64,000 bases of DNA from Roseomonas sp. (GTDB lineage: Bacteria > Pseudomonadota > Alphaproteobacteria > Acetobacterales > Acetobacteraceae), in NCBI GenBank assembly GCA_020249775.1, contig JADCFA010000003.1, positions 1 to 64,000 of the forward strand, in the 5' to 3' direction. The notes beneath the pieces are model-generated. The model had not been told where the DNA came from and made no database searches. It saw nothing but the letters and a program-made list of their open reading frames with translations. Of this stretch, positions 41,649 to 60,257 are shown one piece after another. Position 1 is the stretch's first letter. Each line of letters starts with the position of its first letter. A program made the position numbers and the translations under genes.

Positions 41649-42506
41649 TTACGCCCCCTTCACGCCACCCGCCGTCAACCCGGCAACAATCTGCTTTTGC
41701 GCGACCAGAGTCAGGATCAGCACCGGCGCCGTCACCAAAAGCGCCGCCGCTGAAAGCGGCCCCCAAGCCACTTGCTCAAAAGTCAGCATGTTATTCACCG
41801 CGACCGGCAAGGTGCGGGTTTCGCGCCCGGCCAGCACCATGGCGAAGATGAAATTATTCCAGGAGAAAATGAAGGACAGGATGGTGGCAACGGTGATCCC
41901 AGGCCGCGCCAGTGGCATCGCCACATAACGAAATGCCTGCCAGATGGTCGCGCCATCCACCAGCGCCGCTTCTTCCAATTCCGGCGGCAGGCCCTCAAAA
42001 AACGAAATCATCACCCAAACCACAATCGGCACCGTAATCACCAAATGCGTGATGACAATCGGCGTCAGGCTGCCGGTCATGCCAAGCCATTGGAACAGCA
42101 AAAACAGCGGAATCAGATAGGAAAGCCCTGGCGTGATGCGCGCAATCAGGATCAGCGCCGCGGCGCGCATCGCATGCATCTTCGCAATGCCATAACCCGC
42201 CGGCACGCCAATCAGCAGTGCAATGCCGGTCGCGCCGAAGGACACCACAATGGAATTCCAGGCAAAGCGCAGGAAATCATTGCGCGCAAAAACTTCGCGG
42301 TAATTGTCCAAGGTCGGCGCTTGCGGAATGAAGACCGGCGGCCAATCGGTATTGTCCAGCTCATTCTTGAAGGACAGCGACAGCATCCACAGGAAAAACA
42401 GGATGGCCGGCGAAACCAGTACCAGCACCGAAAAGCCAAAGCCGATATTGCCCATCAGCCGGCGCAGCCGATACTGCGCGGGGCTGCGCTTTGCTTCCAC
42501 ACTCAT
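41649..42506 (-). CDS. sugar-type ABC transporter permease (MalG/UgpE-like)
   Basis: This 285-aa membrane protein has about six hydrophobic segments and the MalG-type EAA loop (EGLPPELEEAALVDGATIWQ). It pairs with the MalF-like permease upstream; the start overlaps that gene's stop by 4 bases. No ATPase gene follows: the next gene is the convergent AhpD-like gene 7 bp away. Confidence 0.9.
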   Translation of the reverse strand: MSVEAKRSPAQYRLRRLMGNIGFGFSVLVLVSPAILFFLWMLSLSFKNELDNTDWPPVFIPQAPTLDNYREVFARNDFLRFAWNSIVVSFGATGIALLIGVPAGYGIAKMHAMRAAALILIARITPGLSYLIPLFLLFQWLGMTGSLTPIVITHLVITVPIVVWVMISFFEGLPPELEEAALVDGATIWQAFRYVAMPLARPGITVATILSFIFSWNNFIFAMVLAGRETRTLPVAVNNMLTFEQVAWGPLSAAALLVTAPVLILTLVAQKQIVAGLTAGGVKGA

Positions 42507-43414
42507 GTCATTTTCACCCGCTGACGCGTCCATAACAGCAGCGCAGCCAGCGCCAGAATGATCACAAAGAACACCACCACCACGGCCGACGCATAACCGA
42601 CATTATAGAAGGCAAAGGCTTGCAGATAGAGGAAGATATTGATCGTCTCGCTCGCTGAGCCCGGCCCGCCCTGGGTGATGACGTAGATCGTATCAAAGGC
42701 CTTCAGCGCATCAATGCAGCGGATGATCAGCGCCACGACGATGAAGGGCATCAGCAAAGGCAGCGTGATATGGCGAAAGGCCTGCCAACCATTGGCGCCA
42801 TCAATCTTCGCGGCCTCATAAGGATCAACCGGCAAGGAAGCGAGGCCACCCAGGATCAGCAGCATCACCAAGGGTGTCCAATGCCAGACCTCAATCATCA
42901 CCAGCGTCGGGATGACGGTATTCGCGCTATAGATCCACATGCTGGGCGGCAGACCCACCTGACCCAGAAGCCAATTCAGCACGCCAAGCTGCGGGTGGAA
43001 GGTCATGGTCCAAACCAGCGCTACCGCCACCGGCGTTGCCATCATGGGCAGGATGAAAATGGTGCGTGCCAGGCCACGCAGTGGGAATTTGCGATTGAAG
43101 GCCAGCGCCGCCGCCAAGCCCAGCAGCATCGGAAAAACCACCGCCAGCACCGTATAGAATAGCGTGCGCAGCATGGCCCAGCCGAAGCGGGAATCGGAAA
43201 ACAGCTTCGTGTAATTGGCGAAGCCCACCCAGCTACGTTCCCCGCCCAGATGCCAATCATGGGCGGATACATAAATCGTGAAAATCCAGGGAAAGATGAT
43301 GACCGCAAGCACCACCACCGCGGCAGGGACGATGAACCAGCCATAATGCCTGGCGTAATTGCGTGTCCGCTGAGCCCCTGCTGGACTCGCGGTGATGGTT
43401 TCAGCTTGCTGCAT
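42503..43414 (-). CDS. sugar-type ABC transporter permease (MalF/UgpA-like)
   Basis: This 303-aa membrane protein has six hydrophobic segments and the EAA loop LASLPVDPYEAAKIDGANGW followed by QAFRHITLPLL. The GGPGSASETINIFLYLQAF block is typical for CUT1 permeases. It forms a heterodimer with the MalG-like protein. It follows the binding-protein gene after 15 nt. Confidence 0.92.
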   Translation of the reverse strand: MQQAETITASPAGAQRTRNYARHYGWFIVPAAVVVLAVIIFPWIFTIYVSAHDWHLGGERSWVGFANYTKLFSDSRFGWAMLRTLFYTVLAVVFPMLLGLAAALAFNRKFPLRGLARTIFILPMMATPVAVALVWTMTFHPQLGVLNWLLGQVGLPPSMWIYSANTVIPTLVMIEVWHWTPLVMLLILGGLASLPVDPYEAAKIDGANGWQAFRHITLPLLMPFIVVALIIRCIDALKAFDTIYVITQGGPGSASETINIFLYLQAFAFYNVGYASAVVVVFFVIILALAALLLWTRQRVKMT

Positions 43415-43429
43415 CAGTCTGCGATAGCC

Positions 43430-44767
43430 TCAGCTTTCCCTTTCGCTTTGCTCCAGCACGGGGCGGAATTCAGCCGTGGCGCGGCGCAATTCGGTCGCCA
43501 CATCCGCACCGCTGATGGTGTTGGTAAGCGCCGTGCCGATCACATCGCGGAATTGCGTCACCGGCACAATTTCCGGCAGGCCGGCGCGCGCGATTTTGGC
43601 ACTTTCATTGAGCGTATTGAAGAATTCACGCGGGAAGGTGCTGGCGGCAATCGCCGCTTCATTGCCGAAGGGGCTGCTGCGTGCCGGCACGCCGGCACCG
43701 CTGGTCAGGAAGCGAAGCTGGTTTTCCTTGCCAAGCGCCCATTGCAGATAAAGCCAGGCCGCGCCCTTTTTGCGTGACGCTTCGGGAATGCCATAGCCTG
43801 CGCCGAACAGGCAGCAATGGTGATTGGGCCCGCGCCCCTTCGGCACCAGCGCATAGCCAACCTTGCCCGCCACGCGGGAACGCTGACGATCTTCCAGCGG
43901 CGCCGCAAAGCCGATGCCATCAATCCACATGGCCGCGCGGCCCTGCATGAAGGTGGTTTGGCATTCATTCCAATTGAAGCCGATGGACCCGGGCGGGGAG
44001 ACATCACGCAGGAACTTCTTATACATCTCGCCAGCCCAGATCGCGTCATCCGTATCCGTGATCAATTGGCGATTGGCGTTGATCATGTCGCGCTGCGCGG
44101 TGCCGAGCAGATAGCTGGACCACAACACCACATTGGCGTTCTTCAGCCCGCGCCCGACATGGCCATAGATCTGGCGTGACGGATCGGTCAGCGCGCGGGC
44201 CGCTTCGAACATGCCATCAAAGGTCGTCGGCACGGCGATATTCTTCGCCGCCAACAATTCCTTGTTGTAGTAAAGAATGAAGTAATCCGCGAAGGCCGGC
44301 AGCGAATCCATCCGCCCATCGGTCTGGGTTGCATATTCCACCATGCCCGCGCCAAAATCGGCGAAATCAAAATCCGGCGCGGTAATGGATTGGTCCGCGA
44401 TCAGCGCCTTGATATCCGTATTCCAGCGCGCCTTGCCGACCTGGCGTTTGTTCACATGCAGGCTCAATTCCGCCACATCAAAGGAAGGCCGGCCAGAAGC
44501 ATATTCCACGATGATCTTCTGGCGATGCTGCTGTTCCGGCACCACTTCAATGCCGCAGCGAATCCCCGTCAGGTCTTCGAATTCCTTGTTCTGGCGTTGC
44601 AGCAGCAAGCCGCGCGGCGAAGTTTGCAGCGTGACTTCAATACGTTCCCCCGCGAAGCGCTTCCAATCGAAGCGGCTTTGCGCATTGGCCTGCCGCACAA
44701 AGGCAGGCGCGGCAAGCAAGGCAGCAGTTGCGCCAAGCGCCTGGCGGCGCGTGATGTGATTGGCCAT
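43430..44767 (-). CDS. ABC transporter substrate-binding protein, family 1
   Basis: This 445-aa periplasmic protein has a twin-arginine-like signal (ITRRQALGATAALLAAPAFV, cleavage near ANAQS). The CUT1-type mature fold includes YFILYYNKELLAAKNI and FMQGRAAMWIDGIGFAAPLE. It should bind a sugar, polyol or glycerol-phosphate-like solute; specificity is unknown. It is first of the binding-protein/permease/permease set. The cupin gene lies 89 nt upstream on the same strand. Confidence 0.92.
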   Translation of the reverse strand: MANHITRRQALGATAALLAAPAFVRQANAQSRFDWKRFAGERIEVTLQTSPRGLLLQRQNKEFEDLTGIRCGIEVVPEQQHRQKIIVEYASGRPSFDVAELSLHVNKRQVGKARWNTDIKALIADQSITAPDFDFADFGAGMVEYATQTDGRMDSLPAFADYFILYYNKELLAAKNIAVPTTFDGMFEAARALTDPSRQIYGHVGRGLKNANVVLWSSYLLGTAQRDMINANRQLITDTDDAIWAGEMYKKFLRDVSPPGSIGFNWNECQTTFMQGRAAMWIDGIGFAAPLEDRQRSRVAGKVGYALVPKGRGPNHHCCLFGAGYGIPEASRKKGAAWLYLQWALGKENQLRFLTSGAGVPARSSPFGNEAAIAASTFPREFFNTLNESAKIARAGLPEIVPVTQFRDVIGTALTNTISGADVATELRRATAEFRPVLEQSERES

Positions 44768-44788
44768 TTCCTGGTCCCTCCCGATTCC

Positions 44789-44808
44789 GGGCGGCTTCGG
44801 CGCCGCCC
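44789..44808. other. hairpin before the binding-protein gene
   Basis: GGGCGGC and GCCGCCC pair around TTCGGC, 22 bp upstream of the binding-protein start. It may separate the cupin transcript from the more highly needed binding-protein mRNA. There is no T tract on the minus strand. Confidence 0.35.
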
Positions 44809-44856
44809 TTTCAGGAGTGATCCTTCACGCAACCGCGCCGCACTGCAAGCGGGGAA

Positions 44857-45420
44857 TTACAGGGCTTCCCGCCGCTGGGCCTCCAACACCGCCGGATCGG
44901 TGATCGGGCTTGTGTCCCAGGGCGGCGGCGGGGGTGGGTCGAGCGTCTCAAATACAGTGGATAGTTCGATATTGCCGGCATCGGCCGGGCGTGGGTAAGG
45001 GGTCGGGTCCGGCGCGCCCGCCACTTTGGGCCGCCCAATGCCGATGAAAAAATCTTCAAGCCCAGCCGGAATCAGCAGCCAGAGGAAGCGAAAGGGATGC
45101 GCGCCATCATTGATAAAGCCATGGCGGATATGGGGTGGTGCGACCATGAAGCTGCCGGTCGCGATGCGCCGCACCACGCCGTCAAGCCGCCCGAGCGCTT
45201 CGCCGGCCACCACCCAGAAAATCTCCGTCTGGGCCGGGTGAGCATGTTCGCGAATTTTGCCAAGCGGCGGCAATTCCTGAAGCCCCGCCGAAAACCCCGC
45301 CGGCATGCCCGTCATGCGGGGGGAGGTCAGTACCTCGATCCAGCCATTGGCCGGTTGAGGCTGCCAATGCTGCGCCCCGCCGCCCGGCGGGATGAGAATG
45401 AAACCACCGGCTTGGGACAT
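44857..45420 (-). CDS. cupin-domain protein
   Basis: This 187-aa protein has a cupin beta-barrel (about 40-125). Motif 1 contains REHAHPAQTEIFWVVAGEAL (His, His and Glu ligands) and motif 2 contains APPHIRHGFINDG (His). The C-terminal 50 residues are Pro/Asp-rich and lack a fold I recognise. It may be an isomerase, dioxygenase or sensor. It lies 11 nt after the pseudoprotease gene and upstream of the sugar ABC set on the same strand. Confidence 0.8.
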   Translation of the reverse strand: MSQAGGFILIPPGGGAQHWQPQPANGWIEVLTSPRMTGMPAGFSAGLQELPPLGKIREHAHPAQTEIFWVVAGEALGRLDGVVRRIATGSFMVAPPHIRHGFINDGAHPFRFLWLLIPAGLEDFFIGIGRPKVAGAPDPTPYPRPADAGNIELSTVFETLDPPPPPPWDTSPITDPAVLEAQRREAL

Positions 45421-45431
45421 GAACTATCCTT

Positions 45432-46400
45432 TCAATGCAGGCGTGGGCGCTTCAGAAACTGCACCCGATCAGCCGAGGTTATGGTCACATCACGCCGCGC
45501 CTTGCCCCGGCTGACCTGCAGGTGAAGATTCACCCCAGCCGGCCCCATCGCCCAAATGGCGCGCCAAAAATCCGCCAATTCGCTGATCGCCGTGCCTTCC
45601 ACCGCCAGGATACGATCCCCATTGCGCAGCCCCGCTGCCTCGGCCGGGCCACCAGGGGCGAGGGAGGCTACCGAAATCCCCTCCTCATCCTCGGTCGCGT
45701 AAAGGCCGAGCCAGGGGCGGGGCGGGCCGGAACGGCGGCCCTGGGTGATCAATTCATCCAAAACAGCGGTCAACTGATGCACCGGAATGACCATGTTCAA
45801 ATCAAGCCGGCGGCCTTCCTCGCCTTGCTGCAAAATCAAGGAACCAATCCCCACCAGCTTGCCATCCGGGCCGAACAGCCCGGCACCGCCCCAGGAAGGA
45901 TGGGCGGGTGCCACAAAGAGCGCATCTTCCATCAGATATTCCCAATAGCCGGCGAAGGGCTGGCGCGCGACCAGCTTGCCCGCCACCGCATGGGTGCGCC
46001 CGCCCGCCGCTGCCATCACCGTGGCGGCGCCGATTTTCAGCTTGTCACTGTCACCCAAAACCGCCGGCTTCAAAGGAATCTTGCCCAAGGCCTGCACCAG
46101 GGCAAAGCCGGTTTCCTGATCCACCGCCAGCGCATGGCCAGGCACGGCGCGGCCTTCAGCGGTGGTGATCCAGATGCTCTCTGCCTCGCTCACCAGATAG
46201 CCCACGGTCAACACCAGGCCATCGCCAATCAGCACACCGCTGCCCTCGCGTTCCGTGCCAAGCACCCGCGCGGTAAAGGCATCCGGCGGCACTTGGCTCC
46301 GCAAGCCGACCACGGCGCGATAGGCCTGTTCCAGGTCGAAGCCATGCTCCGATGGGTCGGGCTGCAAATGCTCGGGGATGTCCCAGTCTTCTTCCGCCAT
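45432..46400 (-). CDS. HtrA-like S1C protein with PDZ domain, catalytic triad lost
   Basis: This 322-aa protein has a trypsin-like domain (about 25-210) and a C-terminal PDZ domain (about 225-310; ISVASLAPGGPAEAAGLRNG). By alignment to HtrA motifs all three catalytic residues appear replaced: His by Tyr68 (LTVGYLV), Asp by Gly98 (ETGFALVQ) and Ser by Trp170 (HPSWGGAGLFG). No signal peptide is seen. It is therefore predicted to be a cytoplasmic binding or scaffold protein rather than a protease. It starts the minus-strand run leading to the cupin and sugar-transport genes and is divergent from the Bug gene. Confidence 0.78.
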   Translation of the reverse strand: MAEEDWDIPEHLQPDPSEHGFDLEQAYRAVVGLRSQVPPDAFTARVLGTEREGSGVLIGDGLVLTVGYLVSEAESIWITTAEGRAVPGHALAVDQETGFALVQALGKIPLKPAVLGDSDKLKIGAATVMAAAGGRTHAVAGKLVARQPFAGYWEYLMEDALFVAPAHPSWGGAGLFGPDGKLVGIGSLILQQGEEGRRLDLNMVIPVHQLTAVLDELITQGRRSGPPRPWLGLYATEDEEGISVASLAPGGPAEAAGLRNGDRILAVEGTAISELADFWRAIWAMGPAGVNLHLQVSRGKARRDVTITSADRVQFLKRPRLH

Positions 46401-46536: not shown

Positions 46537-47478
46537 ATGCGTATGCGCTGGATTGTTTCCGTTGCGGCGTTGCTGCTGGCACCATGGGCGCCGGCCAGTG
46601 CCTATCCCGAAAGGCCCATTCGCGTGATCGTGCCCTATGCGGCGGGCGGGGCGACGGATGTGGTGGCCCGCGTGCTGGCGGAAGCCATGGCGCCTATTCT
46701 GCCGCAGCCCCTGATTATCGAAAATCGCGGCGGTGCGGGCGGCATGGTGGGGGCCGAGGTCGTGGCCCGCGCGCCGGCCGATGGCCACACCCTGCTGTTC
46801 AACAATACCGGCCATGCCGCCTTGCGCGTGCTGGTCCCCAATCCGCCGATTGATCCCATCGCCAGCCTGCAGGCAATTGCGGTGGTCGCCGAATCACCCA
46901 TTGTGATGTTGGTTGCGAATAATGTGCCGGCCAATAATCTCCGCGAATTCACAGCACTTGCGCAGGCGCGGCCCGGACAATTGGATTACGGCAGCTCCGG
47001 CGGTGGCGGCATTCTGCAAATGGCCGCGCTGCTTTATCTGAAGGCAACGGGGGTGCAGTTGAATGAAGTGCCCTATCGCGGCGGCGCGCCGGCAACACTC
47101 GATCTTGCCGCCGGGCGCATTGCCATGATGTTCGATGCCGGGCTTACCGGGTTTCAGACCGCACGCGGCAATCAGGCGCGCGCCTTTGCGGTCACCACGC
47201 CACAACGCAATGCCGCCAATCCTGATGTGCCCACCTGGCGCGAGGGCGGTGTGGATGCGGAAATGAGCGTCTGGCAGGCGGTTTTCGTGCCAAGTGCCAC
47301 GCCGCGCGACAGGCGCGACATACTGAACGCCGCCATCAACCGCGCCCTTGGGCAGGAAGCGCTTCGCAAGCGCTTGGGGGATTTGGGCGCTGACCGCATC
47401 CTCAGCCTGAATGTCGCCGAAAGCGAAGCCTATCTGGCCGCCGAGGTGACGCGCTGGGAAGCGCTGCTGAAGCGCTGA
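46537..47478 (+). CDS. Bug-family (TctC-like) substrate-binding protein
   Basis: This 313-aa periplasmic protein has a signal peptide (about 1-22, ending APASA) and the family start YPERPIRVIVPYAAGGATDV. ENRGGAGGMVGAEVVARAPA and the later VPYRGGAPATLDLAAGRI are diagnostic of Bug proteins of tripartite tricarboxylate transporters. They bind carboxylates. The TctA/TctB membrane subunits are not in the window. The kinase gene begins 3 nt after its stop, so the bound carboxylate is probably the substrate of the following enzymes. Confidence 0.92.
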   Translation: MRMRWIVSVAALLLAPWAPASAYPERPIRVIVPYAAGGATDVVARVLAEAMAPILPQPLIIENRGGAGGMVGAEVVARAPADGHTLLFNNTGHAALRVLVPNPPIDPIASLQAIAVVAESPIVMLVANNVPANNLREFTALAQARPGQLDYGSSGGGGILQMAALLYLKATGVQLNEVPYRGGAPATLDLAAGRIAMMFDAGLTGFQTARGNQARAFAVTTPQRNAANPDVPTWREGGVDAEMSVWQAVFVPSATPRDRRDILNAAINRALGQEALRKRLGDLGADRILSLNVAESEAYLAAEVTRWEALLKR

Positions 47479-47481
47479 GCC

Positions 47482-48492
47482 ATGCCAGAGCCTTTGCCAA
47501 AAACCATCGAAGCCGCGCTTGTCTCCATGGGGCTGCTCGCCCCCGGGCAGCCCGTGCAGGGTGAGGCGCTGGCGGGTGGCGTTTCTTCCGATATCTGGCG
47601 CCTCACGCTGCCCGATGGGCGAGAGATTTGCGTCAAGCGCGCGCTACCCAAGCTGAAGGTGGTCGCCGATTGGCGCGCGCCGGTGGTGCGCAACATTTAT
47701 GAAGCGCGCTGGCTGAAGGAGGCTGATCGCGCTTTGCCCGGCGCTGTGCCGAAACTGCTCGGCCAGGATGATGCAACGGGCGCGCTCGCCATGGAATTCC
47801 TTTCGCCAGCGGACCACCCGGTCTGGAAGGCGCGGCTGCGTGACGGCCATGCGGATGCGGCGTTTGCGGCTGAGATCGGGCGCCGCATCGCCGCCATCCA
47901 TGCCCATGCCGCGGTGAATCCCGGCTTGGCGAAAGCCTTCCCCACCGATGAGATTTTCCACGCCATTCGGCTGGAACCCTATCTGCTGGCGACCGCGCGC
48001 GTGCATCAAGATTTGGTGGCGGCGTTGGAAGATATGGCGGCGGTCACCGCGCGCAGCAAACGCACTTTGGTCCATGGTGATGTCAGCCCGAAGAATATCC
48101 TCTGCGGCCCATCCGGCCCGGTGTTTCTGGATGCGGAATGCGCCTGGTGGGGCGACCCCGCTTTCGATCTTGCCTTTTGTCTCAATCATCTTTTGCTGAA
48201 ATGCCTATGGACGCCGCGCGCTGCCGCCGGCTTCATGAACTGCTTTGAAGCGCTTGCAACGCACTATCTGGCGGGCATTACCTGGGAAGCGGCGGATGCG
48301 CTGGAAGCGCGCGCGGCGCGGCTGCTGCCGGGGCTTTTTCTCGCGCGGGTGGACGGCAAAAGCCCGGTCGAATACCTGACCGAAGAGGCTGACAGGAACC
48401 GCGTGCGCCGAGTGGCGCGCTCCTTGTTGATGCGGCCCGCAGATCGCCTGATGGCGGTGCGCGCGGCCTGGGGGGAAGAAATCGGCGCATGA
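47482..48492 (+). CDS. APH-type small-molecule kinase
   Basis: This 336-aa protein has the aminoglycoside-phosphotransferase/choline-kinase fold. An ATP-binding lysine is likely Lys52 (ICVKRALP). The catalytic loop is VHGDVSPKNIL (Asp200, Asn205) and the metal Asp is 217 (FLDAECAWWGDPAFDLAF). MTR kinase-like and other metabolite kinases share this pattern. Its position between a carboxylate-binding protein and an enolase-like enzyme suggests it phosphorylates a hydroxy-acid or related metabolite, giving the enolase homologue a phosphorylated substrate. The stop overlaps the next start (ATGA). Confidence 0.75.
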   Translation: MPEPLPKTIEAALVSMGLLAPGQPVQGEALAGGVSSDIWRLTLPDGREICVKRALPKLKVVADWRAPVVRNIYEARWLKEADRALPGAVPKLLGQDDATGALAMEFLSPADHPVWKARLRDGHADAAFAAEIGRRIAAIHAHAAVNPGLAKAFPTDEIFHAIRLEPYLLATARVHQDLVAALEDMAAVTARSKRTLVHGDVSPKNILCGPSGPVFLDAECAWWGDPAFDLAFCLNHLLLKCLWTPRAAAGFMNCFEALATHYLAGITWEAADALEARAARLLPGLFLARVDGKSPVEYLTEEADRNRVRRVARSLLMRPADRLMAVRAAWGEEIGA

Positions 48493-49778
48493 GTAGCACC
48501 AGCATTACCGCCATTCGCGGCCGCCGCGTCTGGGACAGCCGAGGCCGGCCGACGGTGGAAGCGGAAATCACCTTGGCCGGCGGGGCGACCGGCCGCGCCA
48601 TGGCCCCGGCAGGGGCGAGCACCGGCAGTGGTGAGGCTTTGGACAAGCGCGATGGTGGTGCTGCCTTTGGCGGTTATGATGTGACAAGCGCGGTGGATGC
48701 CGTGAACCGCGAATTGGCCCCTGCCCTGCTTGGCATGGATGCGCGCGCTCAGGCCGCTTTGGATGCGCGGCTGATCGCGCGCGATGGGACGCCGCAAAAA
48801 ACCCGCCTTGGCGCCAATGCGACACTCGCCGTTTCCATGGCCGCCGCCCATGCCGCCGCTGCGGCAGATGGCGTGTCGCTGTGGCGCTATCTGGGCGGCG
48901 ATACGCCCAATGTTTTGCCTTTGCCGCAAATCCAAATTCTGGGCGGCGGTGCCCATGCCGGGCGGCGCGTGGATATCCAGGATTTCCTGGTGATGTGTCC
49001 CGCCGCCACCAGCTTTGCCGAGGCGCTCGATTGGACCGCCGAGGTCTATCGCTCAGCCGGCGCCATCATGAAGCAGCGCGGCCTGTTGCAGGGTGTGGCG
49101 GATGAGGGTGGCTGGTGGCCCGCCTTCACCGCCAATGAACAAGCCCTGGAAACCCTTGTCGCCGCCATCGAAAAAGCCGGCTTCGCACCGGGCCGACAAG
49201 TGGCGATTGCGCTTGATATTGCCGCGACGGATTTCGGCAAGGGCGGACGATACAAGCTTGGCCTGGAAGGCCGCGAACTCGGCACTGATGAGATGATCCG
49301 CATGTTGCTTGGCTGGATCGCAGCCTATCCGATCGCGTCCATCGAAGACCCGCTGGCCGAAGATGACGCAGCGGGCTTTGCTGCCTTCACCCGCGAAGTG
49401 GGTGGGCGCATCCAGGTGGTTGGCGATGATTTCCTGGTGACGGATGCCGCGCGGGTGCGCCGCGCGGCGGCTATCGGTGCCGCCAATACGGTGCTGATCA
49501 AGCCCAATCAGCGCGGCACGCTGACTGAAACCAAAGCCGCCTGGGACGCCGCGCGGGAAGTGGGCTTCGCCGGCATTGTCAGCGCCCGTTCTGGCGAGAC
49601 GGAGGATGTCACCATTGTGCACCTGGCCATGGGCTGGGGTGTGGGGCAATTGAAGGTCGGTTCCTTTGCGCGGTCTGAACGCATGGCAAAATGGAACGAA
49701 GCCTTGCGCGTGGAAGAAAGCCTGGGCGCACGGGCGCGCTTTGCCGGCAGCGCCTATCTTGGTCGGTCCCGGCCATGA
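48489..49778 (+). CDS. divergent enolase paralogue
   Basis: This 429-aa enolase-superfamily member is clearly closest to true enolase. It keeps metal ligands Asp243, Glu286 and Asp313, Glu206 (ADEGG), Lys338 (LIKPNQRGTLTET) and Lys389 (QLKVGS). Compared with yeast enolase, Glu168 corresponds to Asp165 and His373 of SHRSGETED is Ala366 (SARSGETED). QIKTGAP is changed to QLKVGSF. The housekeeping function is therefore unlikely; a related dehydration of another phosphorylated or carboxylate substrate is inferred. It is translated in overlap with both neighbours. Confidence 0.85.
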   Translation: MSSTSITAIRGRRVWDSRGRPTVEAEITLAGGATGRAMAPAGASTGSGEALDKRDGGAAFGGYDVTSAVDAVNRELAPALLGMDARAQAALDARLIARDGTPQKTRLGANATLAVSMAAAHAAAAADGVSLWRYLGGDTPNVLPLPQIQILGGGAHAGRRVDIQDFLVMCPAATSFAEALDWTAEVYRSAGAIMKQRGLLQGVADEGGWWPAFTANEQALETLVAAIEKAGFAPGRQVAIALDIAATDFGKGGRYKLGLEGRELGTDEMIRMLLGWIAAYPIASIEDPLAEDDAAGFAAFTREVGGRIQVVGDDFLVTDAARVRRAAAIGAANTVLIKPNQRGTLTETKAAWDAAREVGFAGIVSARSGETEDVTIVHLAMGWGVGQLKVGSFARSERMAKWNEALRVEESLGARARFAGSAYLGRSRP

Positions 49779-50713
49779 AGGTGCTGCTCCATTACGATGC
49801 CGGGCCGGGCTTGGCTGCCCGATTGGCCGCGCTGCCCGGCATTGACCTGACCATCTGCGCGGAAGCCGATACAGCGCTTTACGCCCGCCTGCTGCCGGAG
49901 CTTGAGGCGATCTGGCATGTGCTCCGGCCCATCAGCGCCGCCGATATCGCCGCCGCGCCAAAGCTTCGCCTGATCCAGAAAATCGGTGTGGGTGTGAACA
50001 CAATTGACCTTGAAGCCGCCCGCGCGCGCGGCATTGCCGTGTGCAATTTGCCGGGGACCAATAGCCGGGCAGTGGCGGAAATGACCCTGCTGCTGATGCT
50101 GGGCGCGCTCCGCCGCATTGCCTATTTTGATGGGGAAACCCGCGCCGGGCGCGGCTGGTCCCAGCCCCCTGCCCTGCAGGATGGGCTGTTTGAACTTGCC
50201 GGGCGCAAGGTGGGCCTGGTGGGCTATGGCGCGGTGCCAAAGCTGCTTGCCCCCATATTGCAGGCCATGGGGTGTGAGGTCTTGTATGCCGCCCACGCCC
50301 CAAAGCCAGAGGCGATTGGTAGCTTCCGCCCGTTGGAGGCGCTTTTGGCGGAAGCCGATGTGATTTCTCTTCATATACCCGAAACGGCGGAAACCCGGGG
50401 CCTGATCAGTGCAAAAGCGATTGCCAGCATGAAGCCGGGCGCGGTTCTGGTGAATACGGCGCGCGGCGGGTTGGTGGATCAGGCCGCGCTGGTGGCCGCA
50501 CTTCGATCGGGCCATTTGGCCGCGGCAGGGCTTGATGTATTCGCCGCCGAGCCGCTGGACCCTGCCGACCCCTTGCTTGGCCTGCCAAATGTGGTGCTGG
50601 TGCCGCATGTGGCCTGGCTTTCCACCGGCACCTTTGCTCGTTCCTTCAGCATCGCGGCGGAGAATTGCCGGCGGCTTCAACGCGGTGAGGTTCTGTTGCA
50701 CCGGGTAATGTGA
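49775..50713 (+). CDS. D-isomer-type 2-hydroxyacid dehydrogenase
   Basis: This 312-aa NAD(P)-dependent oxidoreductase has the active-site Arg, Glu and His in NTARGGLVDQ, FAAEPLDPAD and VLVPHVAW. The nucleotide motif is VGLVGYGAVPKLLAPIL, where the third glycine of GxGxxG is replaced by Pro. This is unusual and may alter cofactor binding. NSRAVAEMTLLLMLGALR is the family signature 1 region. The ATG at 49775 overlaps the enolase-like stop by 4 bases. It probably reduces the keto-acid formed after the enolase-type step, or oxidises the incoming hydroxy-acid. Confidence 0.87.
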   Translation: MKVLLHYDAGPGLAARLAALPGIDLTICAEADTALYARLLPELEAIWHVLRPISAADIAAAPKLRLIQKIGVGVNTIDLEAARARGIAVCNLPGTNSRAVAEMTLLLMLGALRRIAYFDGETRAGRGWSQPPALQDGLFELAGRKVGLVGYGAVPKLLAPILQAMGCEVLYAAHAPKPEAIGSFRPLEALLAEADVISLHIPETAETRGLISAKAIASMKPGAVLVNTARGGLVDQAALVAALRSGHLAAAGLDVFAAEPLDPADPLLGLPNVVLVPHVAWLSTGTFARSFSIAAENCRRLQRGEVLLHRVM

Positions 50714-51083: not shown

Positions 51084-53627
51084 ATGTCAAACTCGATTTC
51101 CGAACTCGACCGTTTTAGGTCAGATTCCTTTGAGCCAAAGAGCTTTCGTGAAAGGGGAGCGACGGTCCCCTTCACGACGCCATTATTGCTCAATGCGCGT
51201 ATTCGCGACGCCAGTTCGGGCCGTGGATTTGAGATCGTTATAGCCAACCCCTCGGGCGGGCGCGGGGCCCTCATATTGCCTTGGTTATCACTGCCAGAAA
51301 TTTGCTCACCCACACTTTTCGATCGCCATCTCTGGGAGGGCTTAGCCGATACCAGCGTCATCTCGCCAATAGGCATCCGACATGAAGCGCAAAGGCTTGC
51401 TGCACAGGGCCTTGCGGGACGCGGCGCAGCGGTTGCGGCCAAGGACGCCCAAAGGCGCGACCAAACTGGTCAGCGGCTCATGCGCTCCATGCTGCTGGAG
51501 AGCCTGATCACGGCCGTAGAAGCCCCGATCGAAGCTGCGGGACGGTCCAATGTGGCTGGGGGAGAGTCTTTCGTAAAACGTGCAGAGCGCGCCGTTGCGC
51601 GTTCAGCCACCATAGCGCGAATGCCAGTTGCAGCTTTCACCACTGACCTAGAGGCGCTTGCGGTTGCCTTAAGCGGAGCTGCACCGAAGATTGCCGGGGA
51701 AGACGCCCGGCTACGGGAAATGCTTTCAAATTTGGAAGATTTGGTAACTGAAGTCACTGATTGGGCTAAAGACCAGCAGCAGGAAGCTACCCATGTCATG
51801 GCTGCGAAATTTATCGTGGAGACCGCTTCACAGACCCTTGAGTGTGCCGAAATTGCCCTGGCAACTACCGATGCATTGATTGCCGATCTTGGTTTGTTGT
51901 TACCGAGATGGCGGACTGAAAAGGAAAATATTCTTGAACGCGCCAGGGGTCCTGAATGGGTGCTGGATGGGTGGAAAACGCCAATCGCGCTCTGGAAAGC
52001 CGCTGATACGCATCAGCGCCAGGCAGCGATCTGGGAAATCGCGCTGATCGCGCCAATCCTGCCGCGTGAGGCAAAAGCTTGGCTCGGAAAAGTAAGCGAT
52101 TGGCGTGATACGCCGCGACGCATCACCCAGGTGGTGCGCGACAAGGCGGATTGGCGCAACGGCAATGTCATGGAAGTAGTCGCTCGCAATGAAAATCTGA
52201 TTGGTGCGTCGATCGCTTATGAAAACCGCGTTTCCCCTATGGTTCTTCCGCGCAACAAGAACTACCTGATGCGGCGCCGCGGAGCTGCGGTGATGAATTC
52301 CAAGCAAATCATTCCAAAGGAGATGTTAGCAGGCATTGCGCCTAATCAGTCTTTAGAGTCTCTCGCAAAAACCGAAAAAATCAGACCAGGGGACGAGCGA
52401 AGCGCCCTGACAACAACCAGGGCGCTTGGAGCCCTGATCGAAGGCGCGTCCGATTCCGCCCTTGAAAAGATCGTTGCTCTGGTCGATCGGCTTGCCATGC
52501 CGGAAATTCACGATCGCCTTCTGGGAACTTCACTGCGGCGCCTGAAGCGTTTGCGTCCCCCTCGACCCGCCAGTCTGATGCGTCTGCTTTTCATGCCCAT
52601 GTCGGGCGCATTGGTCGATCCGCTGCAATGGCGCCGCTCGGACGAACGGATTCCCCGCTCGGCGCTGGGGCCCTTGCTCGAATCGCTCACCGTCGCAGTC
52701 GGGCCGCAGTTAGAAACAATTTCGCTACAACTGCGCGGTGGAAGTCTTGATGACCCTAAGCTGATCGATAGTGCTGGTCGCAAGTTATGGCGTCTGGCGG
52801 CTGAGGCAGTGCCACGCCTGCGCTTGGATGCCTCCTGGTCGCGTGCGGGATTGGACGAACAGGATTTCGAAACGATTACAAATCTGGCTGGTTCCCTTTG
52901 GCGTCATTCAGGTCCCTTATGGGATGGTATGCAACTCGTTAGCGGTGAGTGCCCACCTGAAATGCTGCGTGCCTCCCTTATCGGACCGGCCCAGGAAAGC
53001 CGGGGTGTTTTTAGCGCTGCTCTGGAAACACTCTTGCTACGCGCTTCCCGACCCTCAGTTTTCTTGAGCCTCACTCGCGATTTGCCACATCAGGTGAGCG
53101 GCGTGGTTGAGGGGGCTATGAAATTATGGGTCAGCGTTACCTTACCGGAACTCGCCGAAGATGATTTCATCACCGGAGCCCGGCTTGCGGGCGAAATCGG
53201 CCTTGTGATTGCCGCACTGGAAGATCAGCCGCGGAACGCCTCAAAAACCGATACGAAAGAACTCGTCATCCATCGGCGCAATCTGGACCAGTTTTGCAGG
53301 TCAAGCTATCGAGAGATGGTCTCCGTTCATGTCACGAGAGCGTTAGTTGAATTGACCCCTGAGCATTCCGCGGAACTGGGCGAGATCGAGGCCATGGCAA
53401 GGGCTGCACGAAGCCTTGAGGAAACGGGCAGGCGCTTCGGCCCGCCGCAAACCTACACCACCATTCAGGATGAGTTCCGTTCCCACATGGAAAAGCTTAT
53501 TCAGGGTGGGTCGGATGCTGCTGTAACCCCCATGGAAATTGCCCGTATTGAAGAAATCCTCATTGGACGAGAATCGGCCGAACGCTCCCTGGGTCGCTAT
53601 CAGCGCAAAAGTCTAATGGTGTCATGA
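51084..53627 (+). CDS. unknown 847-aa protein
   Basis: I do not recognise this protein. It has no signal peptide or membrane segment and appears mostly helical. It contains an Ala/Arg-rich segment (about 105-200), a Trp/Arg-rich middle (DWRDTPRRITQVVRDKADWR near 345) and an MRRRGAAV stretch near 395. The C-terminal region is again helical (EIEAMARAARSLEETGRRF). No nucleotide-binding, nuclease or transferase motif is evident. The frame is open for 2.5 kb, uses codons less GC-biased than the neighbours and is bounded by AT-richer DNA and a palindromic repeat, which suggests acquisition. No good ribosome-binding site precedes the ATG. It is a single-gene unit. Confidence 0.75.
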   Translation: MSNSISELDRFRSDSFEPKSFRERGATVPFTTPLLLNARIRDASSGRGFEIVIANPSGGRGALILPWLSLPEICSPTLFDRHLWEGLADTSVISPIGIRHEAQRLAAQGLAGRGAAVAAKDAQRRDQTGQRLMRSMLLESLITAVEAPIEAAGRSNVAGGESFVKRAERAVARSATIARMPVAAFTTDLEALAVALSGAAPKIAGEDARLREMLSNLEDLVTEVTDWAKDQQQEATHVMAAKFIVETASQTLECAEIALATTDALIADLGLLLPRWRTEKENILERARGPEWVLDGWKTPIALWKAADTHQRQAAIWEIALIAPILPREAKAWLGKVSDWRDTPRRITQVVRDKADWRNGNVMEVVARNENLIGASIAYENRVSPMVLPRNKNYLMRRRGAAVMNSKQIIPKEMLAGIAPNQSLESLAKTEKIRPGDERSALTTTRALGALIEGASDSALEKIVALVDRLAMPEIHDRLLGTSLRRLKRLRPPRPASLMRLLFMPMSGALVDPLQWRRSDERIPRSALGPLLESLTVAVGPQLETISLQLRGGSLDDPKLIDSAGRKLWRLAAEAVPRLRLDASWSRAGLDEQDFETITNLAGSLWRHSGPLWDGMQLVSGECPPEMLRASLIGPAQESRGVFSAALETLLLRASRPSVFLSLTRDLPHQVSGVVEGAMKLWVSVTLPELAEDDFITGARLAGEIGLVIAALEDQPRNASKTDTKELVIHRRNLDQFCRSSYREMVSVHVTRALVELTPEHSAELGEIEAMARAARSLEETGRRFGPPQTYTTIQDEFRSHMEKLIQGGSDAAVTPMEIARIEEILIGRESAERSLGRYQRKSLMVS

Positions 53628-53814: not shown

Positions 53815-54270
53815 ATGGAAGTGCCTGAGACATCATCGCGACGCGCCGTGCTGGCCCTGACCTTCACCGGTACGGTTCTCGTGCCGCGCTACGGCTTCGC
53901 CAACCTGCCTGAGAATGTCCAGAGCGCGCTTGACAAGCTACGTGCCGGGCGCACCGCGCAGGAAGGTCGACTGACGCTGCGCCTGCCCGCCATTGCAGAA
54001 AACGGGAATACAGTGCCGCTGAATGTCTCGGCTGAAAGCCCCATGACGGCGACCGACCATGTGAAGGTGATCCATGTCTTCGCAATCGGCAATCCCACAC
54101 CCGAGGTCGCGGTGTTTCACCTGACGCCGGCGCTCGGCCGCGCCGCGGTGGATACGCGCATTCGGCTCGGGCAGACCCAGGATGTGCTTGCCTTCGCGGA
54201 AATGGCTGATGGCAGCCTGCACATGGCGCGCGCCGAGGTGAAGGTCACCATCGGTGGCTGCGGCGGTTGA
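53815..54270 (+). CDS. soxY: sulfur carrier protein SoxY
   Basis: This 151-aa periplasmic carrier holds thiosulfate-derived sulfur on a C-terminal cysteine. The diagnostic GGCGG tail ends the protein (VTIGGCGG, Cys149). A twin-arginine signal is present (SSRRAVLALTFTGTVLVPRY, cleavage near YGFA). GGAGG lies before the ATG. soxZ follows after 18 nt and SoxY and SoxZ form a heterodimer. It is first in the local sox run. Confidence 0.95.
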   Translation: MEVPETSSRRAVLALTFTGTVLVPRYGFANLPENVQSALDKLRAGRTAQEGRLTLRLPAIAENGNTVPLNVSAESPMTATDHVKVIHVFAIGNPTPEVAVFHLTPALGRAAVDTRIRLGQTQDVLAFAEMADGSLHMARAEVKVTIGGCGG

Positions 54271-54288
54271 CGGAAAGGACGATACGTC

Positions 54289-54621
54289 ATGTCTTCCCCT
54301 ATCGGACAACCCCGGCTTCGCCTTCCCGCCCAGGTCAAGGCAGGAGATATCATCGAAATCCGCACCCTGATCACCCATGCCATGGAGACCGGGCAGCGCC
54401 GCACGGCGGAAGGCCAGGAAATTCCCCGCGACATCATCAAGCGATTCGAAGTGCGCTTTGAAGGTGAATTGATCTTCGCCATGGATCTGGCACCAGCGAT
54501 AGCCGCCAACCCATACATCGCCTTTCCCTTCAGGGCGGAGCGTCCGGGACGTTTTGAAATGGTCTGGACCAATGATGCCGGCGAGACGCGCCGCGCCAGT
54601 GCCGAATTGAAGCTTGGCTGA
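54289..54621 (+). CDS. soxZ: sulfur carrier subunit SoxZ
   Basis: This 110-aa immunoglobulin-like protein has the typical SoxZ start PRLRLPAQVKAGDIIEIRTL and the TGQRRTAEGQEIPRDIIKRF block. It lacks a signal peptide and is exported with SoxY as a complex through the Tat system. It sits between soxY and soxB. Confidence 0.95.
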   Translation: MSSPIGQPRLRLPAQVKAGDIIEIRTLITHAMETGQRRTAEGQEIPRDIIKRFEVRFEGELIFAMDLAPAIAANPYIAFPFRAERPGRFEMVWTNDAGETRRASAELKLG

Positions 54622-54667
54622 AGGGCGCCGCGCCCATGCGGCCGGTCCTGCTTTCCTGGCGTGATGC

Positions 54668-56329
54668 ATGATCACGCGGCGGGATTTGTTGGCAGCCAGT
54701 GCCGCGCTCGCGGCCTTGTCAGTGGCCAAAGCTGATGCGCCAAGCCAGACGGAGCTTTTGCGTTTTACGCCGCTCGGGCAAGTCACGCTGATCCATATCA
54801 CGGATTTGCACGGCCAATTGATGCCGATGTTCTTCCGCGAAGCCTCGGCCAAGATTGGCGTGGGTGAGGCGCGCGGTAGGCCGCCGCATGTCGCCGGTGA
54901 GGCGTTCCTGGCTGAATTCGGCTTGGCACGCGGCACGCCGCTCGCCCATGCGCTGACGGATCTCGATTTTACTGATCTCGCCAGGCACTTTGGACCAATG
55001 GGTGGGGTGGATCGAATGGCGACCATCATCAAGGCGATCCGCGCGGAACGCCCCGGGCGGTGCCTGTTGTTGGACGGCGGCGATAGTTGGCAGGGCGCCT
55101 GGACCAATTTGCAGACACAAGCCGCCGATATGGTTGCAGTGCAGAAGGCGCTCGGCGTTGACGCCATGGTCGGCCATTGGGAATTCACCTATGGCGCTGA
55201 TCGCGTAACGGAACTTATCAAGGAGCTTGGCTTTCCATTCCTTGGCGGCAATGTCCAGGATCGTGAATGGAATGAGGAGATCTTTTCAGCAAACGCGATG
55301 TTTGAACGCGGTGGCGTCAAGGTGGCGGTGATCGGCCAGGCGTTTCCCTATACGCCGATCGCCAATCCGCGCTGGATGTTTCCCGATTGGGAATTCGGCA
55401 TCAAGGAAGAAAAAATCGCTGCCCGAGTGCAGGCAGCGCGCGATGCGGGGGCTGGGCTGATCATCCTGCTTTCGCATAATGGTTTTGAGCTTGATCGGAA
55501 GCTCGCCGCACGGGTGCCTGGCATTGATGTGATCCTGACCGGACATACGCATGATGCGCTGCCACGCCCCGTCCAGGTGGGGCGCACAGTTTTGCTGGCA
55601 ACCGGTGCCTCTGGCAAATTTATCAGCCGGCTCGATCTTGATGTGCAAGGCGGGCAGATTTCTGACTATCGTCACGCGCTCATTCCCGTATTCAGCAATA
55701 TGATTTCGCCCGATGCTGACATGGCAGCGCTGGTGCGCAGCCTGCGTGAGCCCCATGCGGCGGATCTGGCGCGGGTGGTGGGCCGCACCGAAAGCCTGCT
55801 CTGGCGGCGTGGCAATACCGGCGGCACTTGGGATGACGTGATCTGTGATGCGCTGCTTGAGCAACGTGATGCCGAGATTGCTCTCTCACCGGGCTTTCGT
55901 TGGGGCACCACCCTGCTGCCAGATACGGACATCACCGCTGAGGATGTCTGGGCACAAACGGCCATCACCTATCCGGCGGCCTATCGCAATGTAATGAAGG
56001 GGGCAGCGATCAAGGCATTGCTGGAAGATATTGCCGATAACCTGTTTCATCCTGATCCATTTTACCAACAGGGTGGGGATATGGTGCGCAGCGGTGGCGT
56101 TACCTTCACGCTGGATGTTGCGGCGGCATCGGGCCAGCGCATTTCCGATCTGCGGCTGAAGCGAAGCGGGCAGCCGATTGAAGCTTCACATGATTACGTG
56201 GTGGCCGGCTGGGCCAGCATCAATCAGGGGGTGGAAGGCCCGCCGATCTGGGATTTGGTGTTTCGCCATTTGGCCAAGGGGCCATTGAAGGTCATGCCGC
56301 GCCATGACATTGAATTGCGCGGCATCTGA
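54668..56329 (+). CDS. soxB: SoxB thiosulfohydrolase
   Basis: This 553-aa enzyme releases sulfate from the sulfonate on SoxY. The dimanganese 5'-nucleotidase-like core shows ITDLHGQLMPMFFREASAKI, LLLDGGDSWQGAW, GHWEFTYG, LSHNGFELDRKL and LTGHTHDALPRP. A twin-arginine signal (ITRRDLLAASAALAALSVAK) directs it to the periplasm. The cytochrome gene follows after a 200-bp gap. Confidence 0.96.
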   Translation: MITRRDLLAASAALAALSVAKADAPSQTELLRFTPLGQVTLIHITDLHGQLMPMFFREASAKIGVGEARGRPPHVAGEAFLAEFGLARGTPLAHALTDLDFTDLARHFGPMGGVDRMATIIKAIRAERPGRCLLLDGGDSWQGAWTNLQTQAADMVAVQKALGVDAMVGHWEFTYGADRVTELIKELGFPFLGGNVQDREWNEEIFSANAMFERGGVKVAVIGQAFPYTPIANPRWMFPDWEFGIKEEKIAARVQAARDAGAGLIILLSHNGFELDRKLAARVPGIDVILTGHTHDALPRPVQVGRTVLLATGASGKFISRLDLDVQGGQISDYRHALIPVFSNMISPDADMAALVRSLREPHAADLARVVGRTESLLWRRGNTGGTWDDVICDALLEQRDAEIALSPGFRWGTTLLPDTDITAEDVWAQTAITYPAAYRNVMKGAAIKALLEDIADNLFHPDPFYQQGGDMVRSGGVTFTLDVAAASGQRISDLRLKRSGQPIEASHDYVVAGWASINQGVEGPPIWDLVFRHLAKGPLKVMPRHDIELRGI

Positions 56330-56529
56330 TCATGCCTTTCGTTCGGCTGTCATTTTTCCGCCGAAGTCGAACCGACAGAAAAACATTCCTCTTCTGATTT
56401 CCATTGGGCGATAATATCGCTCTGCCTTGACACGCTGGTTTTATGATTGACCTGCAGAATTTTGCTGGATAGGGTTTCTTCAACGCTCAAAAAAAGCAAT
56501 TCTTCAAGTCGGTTGGGAGACGGAATTTC

Positions 56530-56823
56530 ATGAAACTCAGGCTTAGCCTCTGCCTATTATTGGCAACAGCCAGCCCGGCTTTCGCGCAGGCGACTGATGT
56601 GCCCCTCCTGATCGGCGGCTGTCAGGGCTGCCACGGCGTCAGCGGTCAAGGCGGGCATGGCATTCCTTCCATCAAGGCCAATCACAGCCGCGATGAATTC
56701 ATCGCGCTCATGCGAGCTTTCAGCGCCAATGAACGGCCCGCAACTGTGATGGGCCGCATCAGCCGCGGCTATACGCCGGAACAAATCGCGCTTCTGGCCG
56801 CGCATTACGCGCGCCCGCAATAA
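56530..56823 (+). CDS. small monohaem cytochrome c of the sox cluster
   Basis: This 97-aa protein has a signal peptide (1-19, ending PAFA-Q) and one haem motif CQGCH (Cys31, Cys34, His35). A probable axial Met is Met74 (ATVMGRISRGY). It is encoded 16 nt before the flavocytochrome flavoprotein gene and should be its electron acceptor, corresponding to FccA/SoxE. SoxE of Paracoccus is larger and dihaem, so this is a reduced form. Confidence 0.87.
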   Translation: MKLRLSLCLLLATASPAFAQATDVPLLIGGCQGCHGVSGQGGHGIPSIKANHSRDEFIALMRAFSANERPATVMGRISRGYTPEQIALLAAHYARPQ

Positions 56824-56839
56824 GCCGGAGGAAAACGCC

Positions 56840-58132: not shown

Positions 58133-58219
58133 ATTCGGCCAAAGGGGCAAAGGCCTGATCATGCGGGCGATGCTCAATGGCCAATAAGCTGTGATAGGCT
58201 CTCTCCAGTGGAGGCCACA

Positions 58220-59500: not shown

Positions 59501-60257
59501 GATCGCGGGCTGTGCTGCCGCCATCATGCTGATGGCTGAGCTTGTGCAAGCACAGCAGACACCAAGTCCTGCCTCTACAATTACTGATCTCTACCGCCCC
59601 TTCGCGGCACCTCCTGGCGAGAGAACCCGCGCCGATGCCGCCTGGCCAGCGGCAAATCTCGGCGCCTTGGCGCTTCCGGCCCCCATCCCCGGCATTGGTC
59701 GCCCTGCAACAAGTGCCGAGATTGCCGGCTGGGATATCGCCGTGCGTGGCGATGGCCATAACCTGCCGCCCGGCAGCGGTACAGCCCGTCAGGGTGAGGA
59801 ACTTTACGTCACACATTGCGCTGCCTGCCATGGCGATTTTGGCGAAGGCTTGGACCGCTGGCCCGCGCTGATGGGCGGGCGCGGCAGCCTGCGGTCTGAC
59901 CAGCCGAAGCGCACTGTTGGGTCTTTCTGGCAGCATGCGCCGAGTGTCTTTGACTATATCCGCCGCGCGATGCCCTATGCCGCGCCGCAGAGCCTTACCA
60001 ATGATGAGTATTACGCCATCACCGCCTATGTCCTCTTCCTGAATGAGCTGATTGGCGAAGACGACAAAATGGATGCGACGCGCCTACCCAAAATCGCCAT
60101 GCCCAATCGTGATGGATTTGTGCTGGAAGCAAGACCCGATACGGAAGACAACGCCTGCATGAGCAATTGCCGTCAAGGCCGCAGGGTGAATGTCACCATG
60201 GATAGCCGACGCTTTGTGGAGCCCGGTTCAGGGTCTGGCACGGATAAGCCGGAATAG
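59481..60257 (+). CDS. soxD: SoxD cytochrome c subunit of sulfur dehydrogenase
   Basis: This 258-aa periplasmic cytochrome has a signal peptide (about 1-24) and one haem motif CAACH (Cys113, Cys116, His117) followed by GDFGEGLDRWPALMGGRG. MPYAAPQSLTNDEYYAITAY is the conserved SoxD/SorB block, with a likely axial Met in it. It takes electrons from SoxC. Paracoccus SoxD is dihaem and larger, so this is the monohaem type. The gene overlaps soxC by 20 bases; an alternative ATG lies at 59493. Confidence 0.92.
   Translation: MSRLMLRIAGCAAAIMLMAELVQAQQTPSPASTITDLYRPFAAPPGERTRADAAWPAANLGALALPAPIPGIGRPATSAEIAGWDIAVRGDGHNLPPGSGTARQGEELYVTHCAACHGDFGEGLDRWPALMGGRGSLRSDQPKRTVGSFWQHAPSVFDYIRRAMPYAAPQSLTNDEYYAITAYVLFLNELIGEDDKMDATRLPKIAMPNRDGFVLEARPDTEDNACMSNCRQGRRVNVTMDSRRFVEPGSGSGTDKPE

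Follow-up and report, generated by a model that had tools for sequence, protein, structure and literature searches.

A kinase-paired enolase paralogue with a putatively rebuilt C3 site in Roseomonas and other bacteria

Introduction

Enolase proper is usually treated as a single-function enzyme, and enolase-like chemistry with something other than water occurs in other pathways, for instance in carboxyphosphonoenolpyruvate synthase and phosphosulfolactate synthase, which are likened to the present case by description only. Here we describe a locus of Roseomonas sp. (assembly GCA_020249775.1, contig JADCFA010000003.1, positions 1 to 64,000; this whole stretch of 64,000 nucleotides is referred to as the window), in which four co-directional genes on the forward strand code for a TctC/Bug-type protein, an APH-fold kinase, an enolase paralogue and a D-2-hydroxyacid dehydrogenase. 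Like enolase (EC 4.2.1.11), the paralogue possesses both enolase domains, is 45–48% identical to aligned canonical enzymes and keeps the metal, base and phosphate ligands, but it differs in four residue changes found in three branches, in its kinase partner and in its coexistence with a normal enolase. As judged from its sequence, the paralogue is a variant of a known family, an enzyme of the enolase branch in which the C3 site is altered and a kinase is the regular partner. We propose that the kinase and the paralogue probably act together in a phosphorylation-primed elimination on a C3-modified 2-hydroxy acid.

Other described systems resemble parts of this locus. In the accessible part of PMC2063504, glycerate kinases fall into classes I, II/MOFRL and III. 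The step proposed here would also phosphorylate a hydroxy acid, whereas the kinase belongs to the APH family, outside the three classes as given there, and a MOFRL protein is encoded separately in the genome. Methylthioribose kinases provide the closest solved folds to the kinase model (TM-score over the query 0.70–0.82) as well as weak sequence matches; however, the identity to those structures is 14–16%, and the NCBIfam MTRK model gives 59 bits against a cut-off of 275. The MR/MLE-type 3,6-anhydrogalactonate cycloisomerases share enolate chemistry on a hydroxy acid with a C3 leaving group but, as far as the accessible parts of PMC5698469 and PMC5385347 go, their substrates are unphosphorylated, and the paralogue described here lies in the enolase branch. 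A search of titles and abstract beginnings in the open literature, with closed journals outside its scope, found no description of a kinase-paired enolase paralogue among the papers listed.

Active-site residues of the paralogue

The enolase fold of the paralogue is clear from its domain matches: Enolase_N, Enolase_C and the NCBIfam model TIGR01060 (470 bits, cut-off 300) all score above their cut-offs, and MR_MLE_C falls just below its own. The metal ligands Asp243, Glu286 and Asp313 are kept, as are Lys338, Lys389 (114 of 115 rows, with one gap), Ser44, His156, Gln164, Glu206, Arg367 and Ser368. The accessible part of a study of Trypanosoma brucei enolase names Ala39, Ser40, Gln164, Lys343, Arg372, Ser373 and Lys394 as residues contacting phosphoenolpyruvate (PEP) and an inhibitor (PMC10675445), and counterparts of these, mapped by motif and not by alignment, are present in the paralogue.

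The Glu at yeast position 168 and the His at yeast position 373 are absent from the paralogue. Their places are taken by Asp165 and Ala366 in every one of the 115 rows that reach 54% identity and in each of the 240 top-scoring database proteins (120 listed for the window protein and 120 for the Persicobacter protein introduced below, the best of about 8000 scored per search). The two substitutions to which the sequence-only reading drew attention are in place. The rows were called paralogues by identity of at least 54% and not by residue, and the 115 are not independent, as the window is counted twice and many come from one genus. Among the 19 rows below 54% identity, Glu and His are found in 18; the nineteenth, from Persicobacter, carries Asp and Ala and is itself another kinase-paired paralogue, whose start is overlapped by the gene of an APH kinase. 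Because both substitutions occur in 115/115 of the former rows, as against Glu and His in 18/19 of the latter, Asp165 and Ala366 are, on the strength of these alignments, not due to chance. Canonical rows (n = 18) have Glu, Gly, His and Thr at positions 165, 204, 366 and 390, where the paralogue has Asp, Ala, Ala and Val. Arg160 and Trp210 are also constant in the 115 rows, and Trp210 is found in 240/240 of the database hits. The yeast numbers used here (Glu168, His373 and Lys345) are those that we take to be in use, mapped by motif.

Asp165, Ala204, Ala366 and Val390 are common to three branches that are well separated and that all include kinase-paired members. The third, Rhodococcus-type branch was reached via a search with the kinase, which led to pairs of kinase and enolase-like protein in Rhodococcus opacus, R. 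pseudokoreensis and Methylobacterium nodulans; these enolase-like proteins are only 46–47% identical to the window protein and carry all four residues without Trp210 or Arg160. By sequence comparison, these four residues, unlike Arg160 and Trp210, characterize all three branches seen. The 80 named loci referred to below were the top-ranking ones among 439 confirmed relatives. Of the two patterns used to fetch them, one includes Ala204 and the other Pro288, so that these two residues are partly built into that set, unlike Asp165, Ala366 and Val390; Ala204 is not built into the database hits or the third branch. In a maximum-likelihood tree of 52 chosen rows (25 paralogue, 8 Persicobacter-type, 2 Rhodococcus-type and 17 canonical), each of the four groups forms one side of a branch with support of 100/99 to 100/100.

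A second enolase in the same genome

The sequence-only reading had asked whether the genome holds another enolase, the lack of which would make this gene the glycolytic one. Another, ordinary enolase is encoded at G000:C34:94581-95849 and is 45% identical to the paralogue. Within the genus, the paralogue is present in 35/35 genomes and two enolases in 33/35, and the two genomes with one enolase are 77% and 96% complete, respectively. The MOFRL glycerate-kinase domain is found in 31 of 33 genus genomes, that of the window included, and the class I glycerate kinase family PF02595 in three of 33, one of them a short match; PF02595 was not found in the genome of the window. With an ordinary enolase and a MOFRL glycerate-kinase gene both present in this genome, the identity of the paralogue as the glycolytic enolase is ruled out. 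Outside the genus the paralogue is scattered: a paralogue-type match is seen in 3 of 24 genomes from other genera of the class and in 9 of 398 genomes of an even phylum sample, its own genome included (E ≤ 1e-130). In Actinomycetota, one of 396 genomes matches, which is the query genome itself (E ≤ 1e-150, a limit not aimed at the more divergent Rhodococcus type).

These genes bear on the possibility of a serine-cycle-like salvage of D-glycerate, in which the dehydrogenase would convert hydroxypyruvate to D-glycerate, the kinase would form 2-phosphoglycerate and the paralogue PEP. The three enzyme types match this series of reactions, the TIGR01060 cut-off is passed, and a PEP carboxylase gene is part of the Rhizobium clusters described below. 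However, a D-glycerate route is available without the genes of this locus, as the MOFRL domain is present. Also, Asp165 and Ala366 do not vary among the rows examined, and changes at the yeast Glu168 and His373 positions cripple yeast enolase. We regard D-glycerate salvage as quite unlikely, because the MOFRL domain is so widespread in the genus and a normal enolase is present.

The kinase and its linkage to the paralogue

Of the 80 named loci, 74 contain a kinase relative, and in 66 it is adjacent to the paralogue gene on the same strand. The six loci without one are L050, which is at a contig end, L053, L057, L073, L082 and L088. The kinase gene is also adjacent in one Persicobacter-type locus and in the three Rhodococcus-type loci read. 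Hence, the recurrent unit is the pair of kinase and paralogue. The expectation of the sequence-only reading that the neighbours are conserved together thus stands for these two genes far beyond the genus and in part for the dehydrogenase, a relative of which is encoded in 28/80 loci, but not for the Bug protein, the conservation of which is only local.

The kinase belongs to the APH family, with a PF01636 match above the cut-off and the HGDxxxxN and DxE motifs. Residues H198, G199, D200, S202, P203, K204 and N205 are at least 97% conserved in 54 rows and invariant in 28 rows; the motif HGDVSPKN, to which they belong, is presumably catalytic. The stretch RVDGKSPVEY is largely constant. In the AlphaFold model (pLDDT 95.6), the best PDB matches are methylthioribose kinases, followed by PsiK and LxmK. 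Neither PF02595 nor PF05161 matches the kinase (E up to 0.001), and APH alone scores above its cut-off.

Related kinases also occur apart from the paralogue. On an Enterobacter chuandaensis plasmid (L188, 8863-9918), a 38% identical kinase is encoded with no enolase beside it, in a gene row that includes a U32 peptidase, an aminotransferase and an iron-containing redox enzyme. A 49% identical kinase is encoded at L138 (G038:C1:14193-15134); the single enolase match of that genome shares 46% identity with the window protein, as canonical enolases do.

The dehydrogenase fits the D-2-hydroxyacid dehydrogenase family, its catalytic and NAD-binding domains both scoring above the cut-off. Besides the 28 loci with a relative of it, a ketopantoate-reductase-like gene is seen in seven of the 80, and one or the other in 33. 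The Bug protein (PF03401, above the cut-off) is encoded in 12 of 18 same-genus loci with a paralogue at least 95% identical; four others are cut by contig ends and two have HtrA instead. It is encoded in none of six loci at 84–86% paralogue identity, and the uptake role given to it in the sequence-only reading is therefore unsupported.

Neighbourhoods of the pair and candidate substrates

The neighbouring genes were taken from open reading frames called here and from annotated plasmids, and those without a family search were named by eye from their first residues. In Rhizobium, Paraburkholderia, Cupriavidus, Streptomyces and Rhodococcus, the neighbours code for an HpaD-like extradiol dioxygenase (290 bits, cut-off 321), a CMD protein, a zinc alcohol dehydrogenase, an FAA hydrolase and, in part, a cupin and a LacI regulator. 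In five Rhizobium-type loci (L063, L112, L118, L121 and L179), a PEP carboxylase gene lies beside the kinase and dehydrogenase genes. In Paracoccus, Roseibium, Oceaniglobus and others, mostly a LacI gene and the order kinase, paralogue, FAA hydrolase and SDR are found, often with a sugar ABC transporter, and the FAA hydrolase resembles 2,4-diketo-3-deoxyrhamnonate hydrolase. In Enterobacter, the kinase and paralogue genes are followed by those for an MFS transporter, a dehydrogenase, a 2-oxopentenoate-hydratase-like protein and an HpaI-like aldolase. The Persicobacter-type context, known from one plasmid, has a gene set for an isomerase, a PfkB kinase and a class II aldolase beside the order ALDH, kinase and paralogue. 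Single loci hold an SBD_N/NBD_C kinase and PdxA (L095), a galactarate-dehydratase-like gene (L055) or a methylisocitrate-lyase-like gene (L058), and mannonate- or galactonate-dehydratase-like and SMP-30-type genes lie near the pair in L119 and L184. The sugar-acid, aromatic-type and PEP-carboxylase neighbours point to differing substrates.

Two further observations concern these neighbourhoods. The catabolic cluster common to Rhizobium, Paraburkholderia, Streptomyces and Rhodococcus holds the paralogue and mostly the kinase too (L112, L121, L118, L116, L057 and L191). PhyH-like dioxygenases, named by eye, are encoded near the pair at L115:8246-9151, L102:6084-6980 and L092:16044-16949.

Several of these contexts would suit L-glycerate as the substrate, in which case the kinase would make L-(S)-2-phosphoglycerate and the paralogue would be an enolase for that enantiomer, yielding plain PEP. 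The pocket of the C3 hydroxyl would then hold a hydrogen, accounting for the lost polar residues, and PEP as product suits the PEP carboxylase of the Rhizobium clusters. The Persicobacter set of isomerase, kinase and class II aldolase could give an L-configured C3 acid, several near relatives of the Persicobacter paralogue come from genera known for the degradation of algal polymers, and the diketo-deoxy-acid-hydrolase-like gene beside the pair in L024, L090, L113, L114, L119 and L184 could free a C3 hydroxy acid from a hexonate. However, the dehydrogenase and ketopantoate-reductase families normally yield (R)-2-hydroxy acids, no L-sugar transporter or enzyme was identified among the neighbours, and with an inverted substrate the base and the acid would have to trade places, whereas Lys338 and Glu206 are both unchanged. 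On balance, we think it unlikely that L-glycerate is the substrate. For the Persicobacter branch, 3,6-anhydrogalactose was also considered as substrate and set aside as not needed, as the accessible part of a Flammeovirga genome paper assigns a known cycloisomerase to it (PMC5385347).

A special case of the elimination proposed here would be that kinase and paralogue replace an aldonate dehydratase in sugar-acid pathways, the paralogue acting on a phosphoaldonate. The loci L024, L090, L113 and L114, with their sugar ABC transporter, SDR and diketo-acid-hydrolase-like genes, are in line with this, no other dehydratase being identified among their named genes (part of the open reading frames scanned), and so is the downstream HpaI-like aldolase in Enterobacter. 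In contrast, the dehydratase-like genes of L119, L184 and L055 stand near the pair, a long polyol chain is not obviously accommodated in a closed enolase site with Ala and Val changes, and the PEP carboxylase is left unexplained. A phosphoaldonate dehydratase is thus an improbable form of the elimination.

Arg160, the TctC genes, the downstream Sox genes and the sulfoquinovose-isomerase-like Persicobacter neighbour prompted us to consider sulfolactate as well. Here, the kinase would make 2-phospho-3-sulfolactate and the paralogue would expel sulfite to form PEP, the reverse of the phosphosulfolactate synthase reaction. The only NCBIfam match of the Persicobacter isomerase (E up to 1e-30) is indeed sulfoquinovose isomerase, with 159 bits against a cut-off of 700, and TTT or TRAP transporters are encoded near some loci. 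Most other evidence speaks against sulfolactate, which we regard as very improbable. A TauE-type sulfite exporter was found in 0 of 100 neighbourhoods of varying length, the window excluded (E up to 1e-5), with a home-made profile built from 29 proteins out of TauE loci that re-finds 28 of them. Sox genes lie in the same place beside the locus in one (G024) of seven relatives examined and not in the other six. In Persicobacter psychrovividus, the isomerase, kinase and aldolase set is part of a SusCD/glycoside hydrolase locus, and the pair is absent from the stretch shown. The residues brought in by the conserved changes, Asp, Ala and Val, are not cationic, and Arg160 is missing from some deeper-branch members. 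Finally, the sugar-binding protein near the pair in Paracoccus matches ABC sugar-binding proteins, one of them glucose-binding, with no sulfoquinovose signal, and the sulfoquinovosyl-binding SmoF is a poorer match to the sugar-binding protein of the window (43433-44767) than are three other sugar-binding proteins.

Proposed mechanism

We hypothesize that the recurrent core is a two-enzyme catabolic module, which seems somewhat the likelier reading of its gene content. In the first step, the APH-fold kinase would phosphorylate the 2-hydroxyl of a 2-hydroxy acid with ATP. Next, as the retained and changed residues suggest, the paralogue would bind carboxylate and phosphate on two Mg2+ like enolase, Lys338 would take the C2 proton and a group would be eliminated from C3, giving PEP or a C3-substituted PEP. 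Because the metal, base and phosphate ligands are retained and the residues presumed to serve the C3 hydroxyl are lost, the first enolase half-reaction would be kept and the C3 half altered. Since the C3 site appears to be rebuilt (Glu168 to Asp, His373 to Ala, Gly to Ala204 and Thr to Val390), the substrate would differ from plain D-2-phosphoglycerate at C3, by an additional substituent or by a different leaving group. In a third step, the 2-hydroxyacid dehydrogenase, or the ketopantoate-reductase-like protein in some lineages, would join the hydroxy acid to a 2-oxo acid, and the use of a dehydrogenase and of a reductase of another family suggests a 2-oxo acid precursor. The sequence-only reading had taken the gene order to mean uptake, phosphorylation, enolase-type elimination and redox conversion of a hydroxy acid. 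The last three fit the recurrence of the pair and the frequency of the dehydrogenase, whereas uptake is unsupported, and the order of the steps is one that we infer.

More specifically, and tentatively, the paralogue might be a phosphorylation-primed lyase. It would act on a 2-phospho acid and detach from its C3 a leaving group different from water, such as sulfite, an alkoxide or an aryl or catechol unit, with PEP itself as the product. Bond cleavage primed by ATP in this manner would be new to the enolase branch. In Rhizobium, Streptomyces and Rhodococcus, the extradiol-type dioxygenase encoded in the cluster would then act on the freed group, and PEP would feed the PEP carboxylase in Rhizobium. 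If the elimination proposed here is right, the kinase-paired branch, scattered but broadly distributed and with two catalytic residues replaced, would add a novel function to the enolase branch and a novel ATP-primed route to PEP, and such second enolases would now be misannotated as phosphopyruvate hydratase.

A number of points weigh against a phosphorylation-primed elimination. The activities of kinase and paralogue are predictions, and the position of Glu168 and His373 around the C3 hydroxyl in enolase is assumed. TIGR01060, an equivalog model, labels the paralogue phosphopyruvate hydratase, the name that these paralogues also bear on the annotated plasmids seen. Neither dehydrogenase nor reductase is found in 47 of the 80 loci, many of which are short stretches, and the diverse neighbour pathways fit either one common small acid made in many ways or several substrates. 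Also, when the tree is drawn with midpoint rooting, the Persicobacter- and Rhodococcus-type rows group with the canonical ones, so that the substitutions may be of repeated or of single origin.

Organization of the locus in the window

The positions of the genes and residues are given in Table 1. Among named sequences, those closest to the window come from Roseomonas/Neoroseomonas. The four gene identities assigned in the sequence-only reading are borne out by the positions of the open reading frames and by Pfam matches that are all above the curated cut-offs. The genes had also been described as overlapping, which holds for kinase and paralogue (4 bases) and for paralogue and dehydrogenase (4 to 88 bases depending on the start chosen, 4 with the likely ATG at 49775) but not for Bug and kinase, which are separated by a 3-base gap.

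Table 1. Positions of genes, motif and codons of the locus in the window
Feature	Position	Strand	Basis and remarks
Bug/TctC-type carboxylate-binding protein	46537..47478	+	Pfam TctC 167.7 bits; present only in close relatives; outside the conserved unit
APH-fold kinase, proposed 2-hydroxyacid 2-kinase	47482..48492	+	Pfam APH 57 bits; AlphaFold model; relatives at paralogue loci
Kinase motif HGDVSPKN, presumed catalytic, residues 198-205	48073..48096	+	row conservation
Enolase paralogue, 429 residues, proposed phospho-hydroxyacid lyase	48489..49778	+	Pfam Enolase_N 153.8 bits, Enolase_C 280.1 bits; TIGR01060
Asp165 codon (yeast Glu168 position)	48981..48983	+	alignment rows
Ala204 codon (Gly in canonical enolases)	49098..49100	+	alignment rows
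Lys338 codon, catalytic base kept (yeast Lys345 position)	49500..49502	+	115/115 rows
Ala366 codon (yeast His373 position)	49584..49586	+	alignment rows
Val390 codon (Thr in canonical enolases), adjoins kept Lys389	49656..49658	+	alignment rows
D-2-hydroxyacid dehydrogenase	49775..50713, alternative starts 49766 or 49691	+	Pfam 2-Hacid_dh 83.5 bits, 2-Hacid_dh_C 180.6 bits

The dehydrogenase gene is adjoined by a gene for an 847-residue protein (51084-53627) with no Pfam or NCBIfam match, relatives of which are encoded beside the locus in other genomes of the genus, duplicated or as two shorter pieces. This gene is followed at 53815-60257 by Sox-type sulfur oxidation genes, coding for SoxY-, SoxZ- and SoxB-like proteins, a flavocytochrome c and a SoxC-like molybdopterin protein; the names SoxY, SoxZ and SoxD were assigned by eye. 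Divergent from the operon, at 41649-46400, a sugar-type ABC transporter (binding protein and two permeases), a cupin and an HtrA-like protease are encoded, and this order is kept in four other loci of the genus (L026, L027, L029 and L030).

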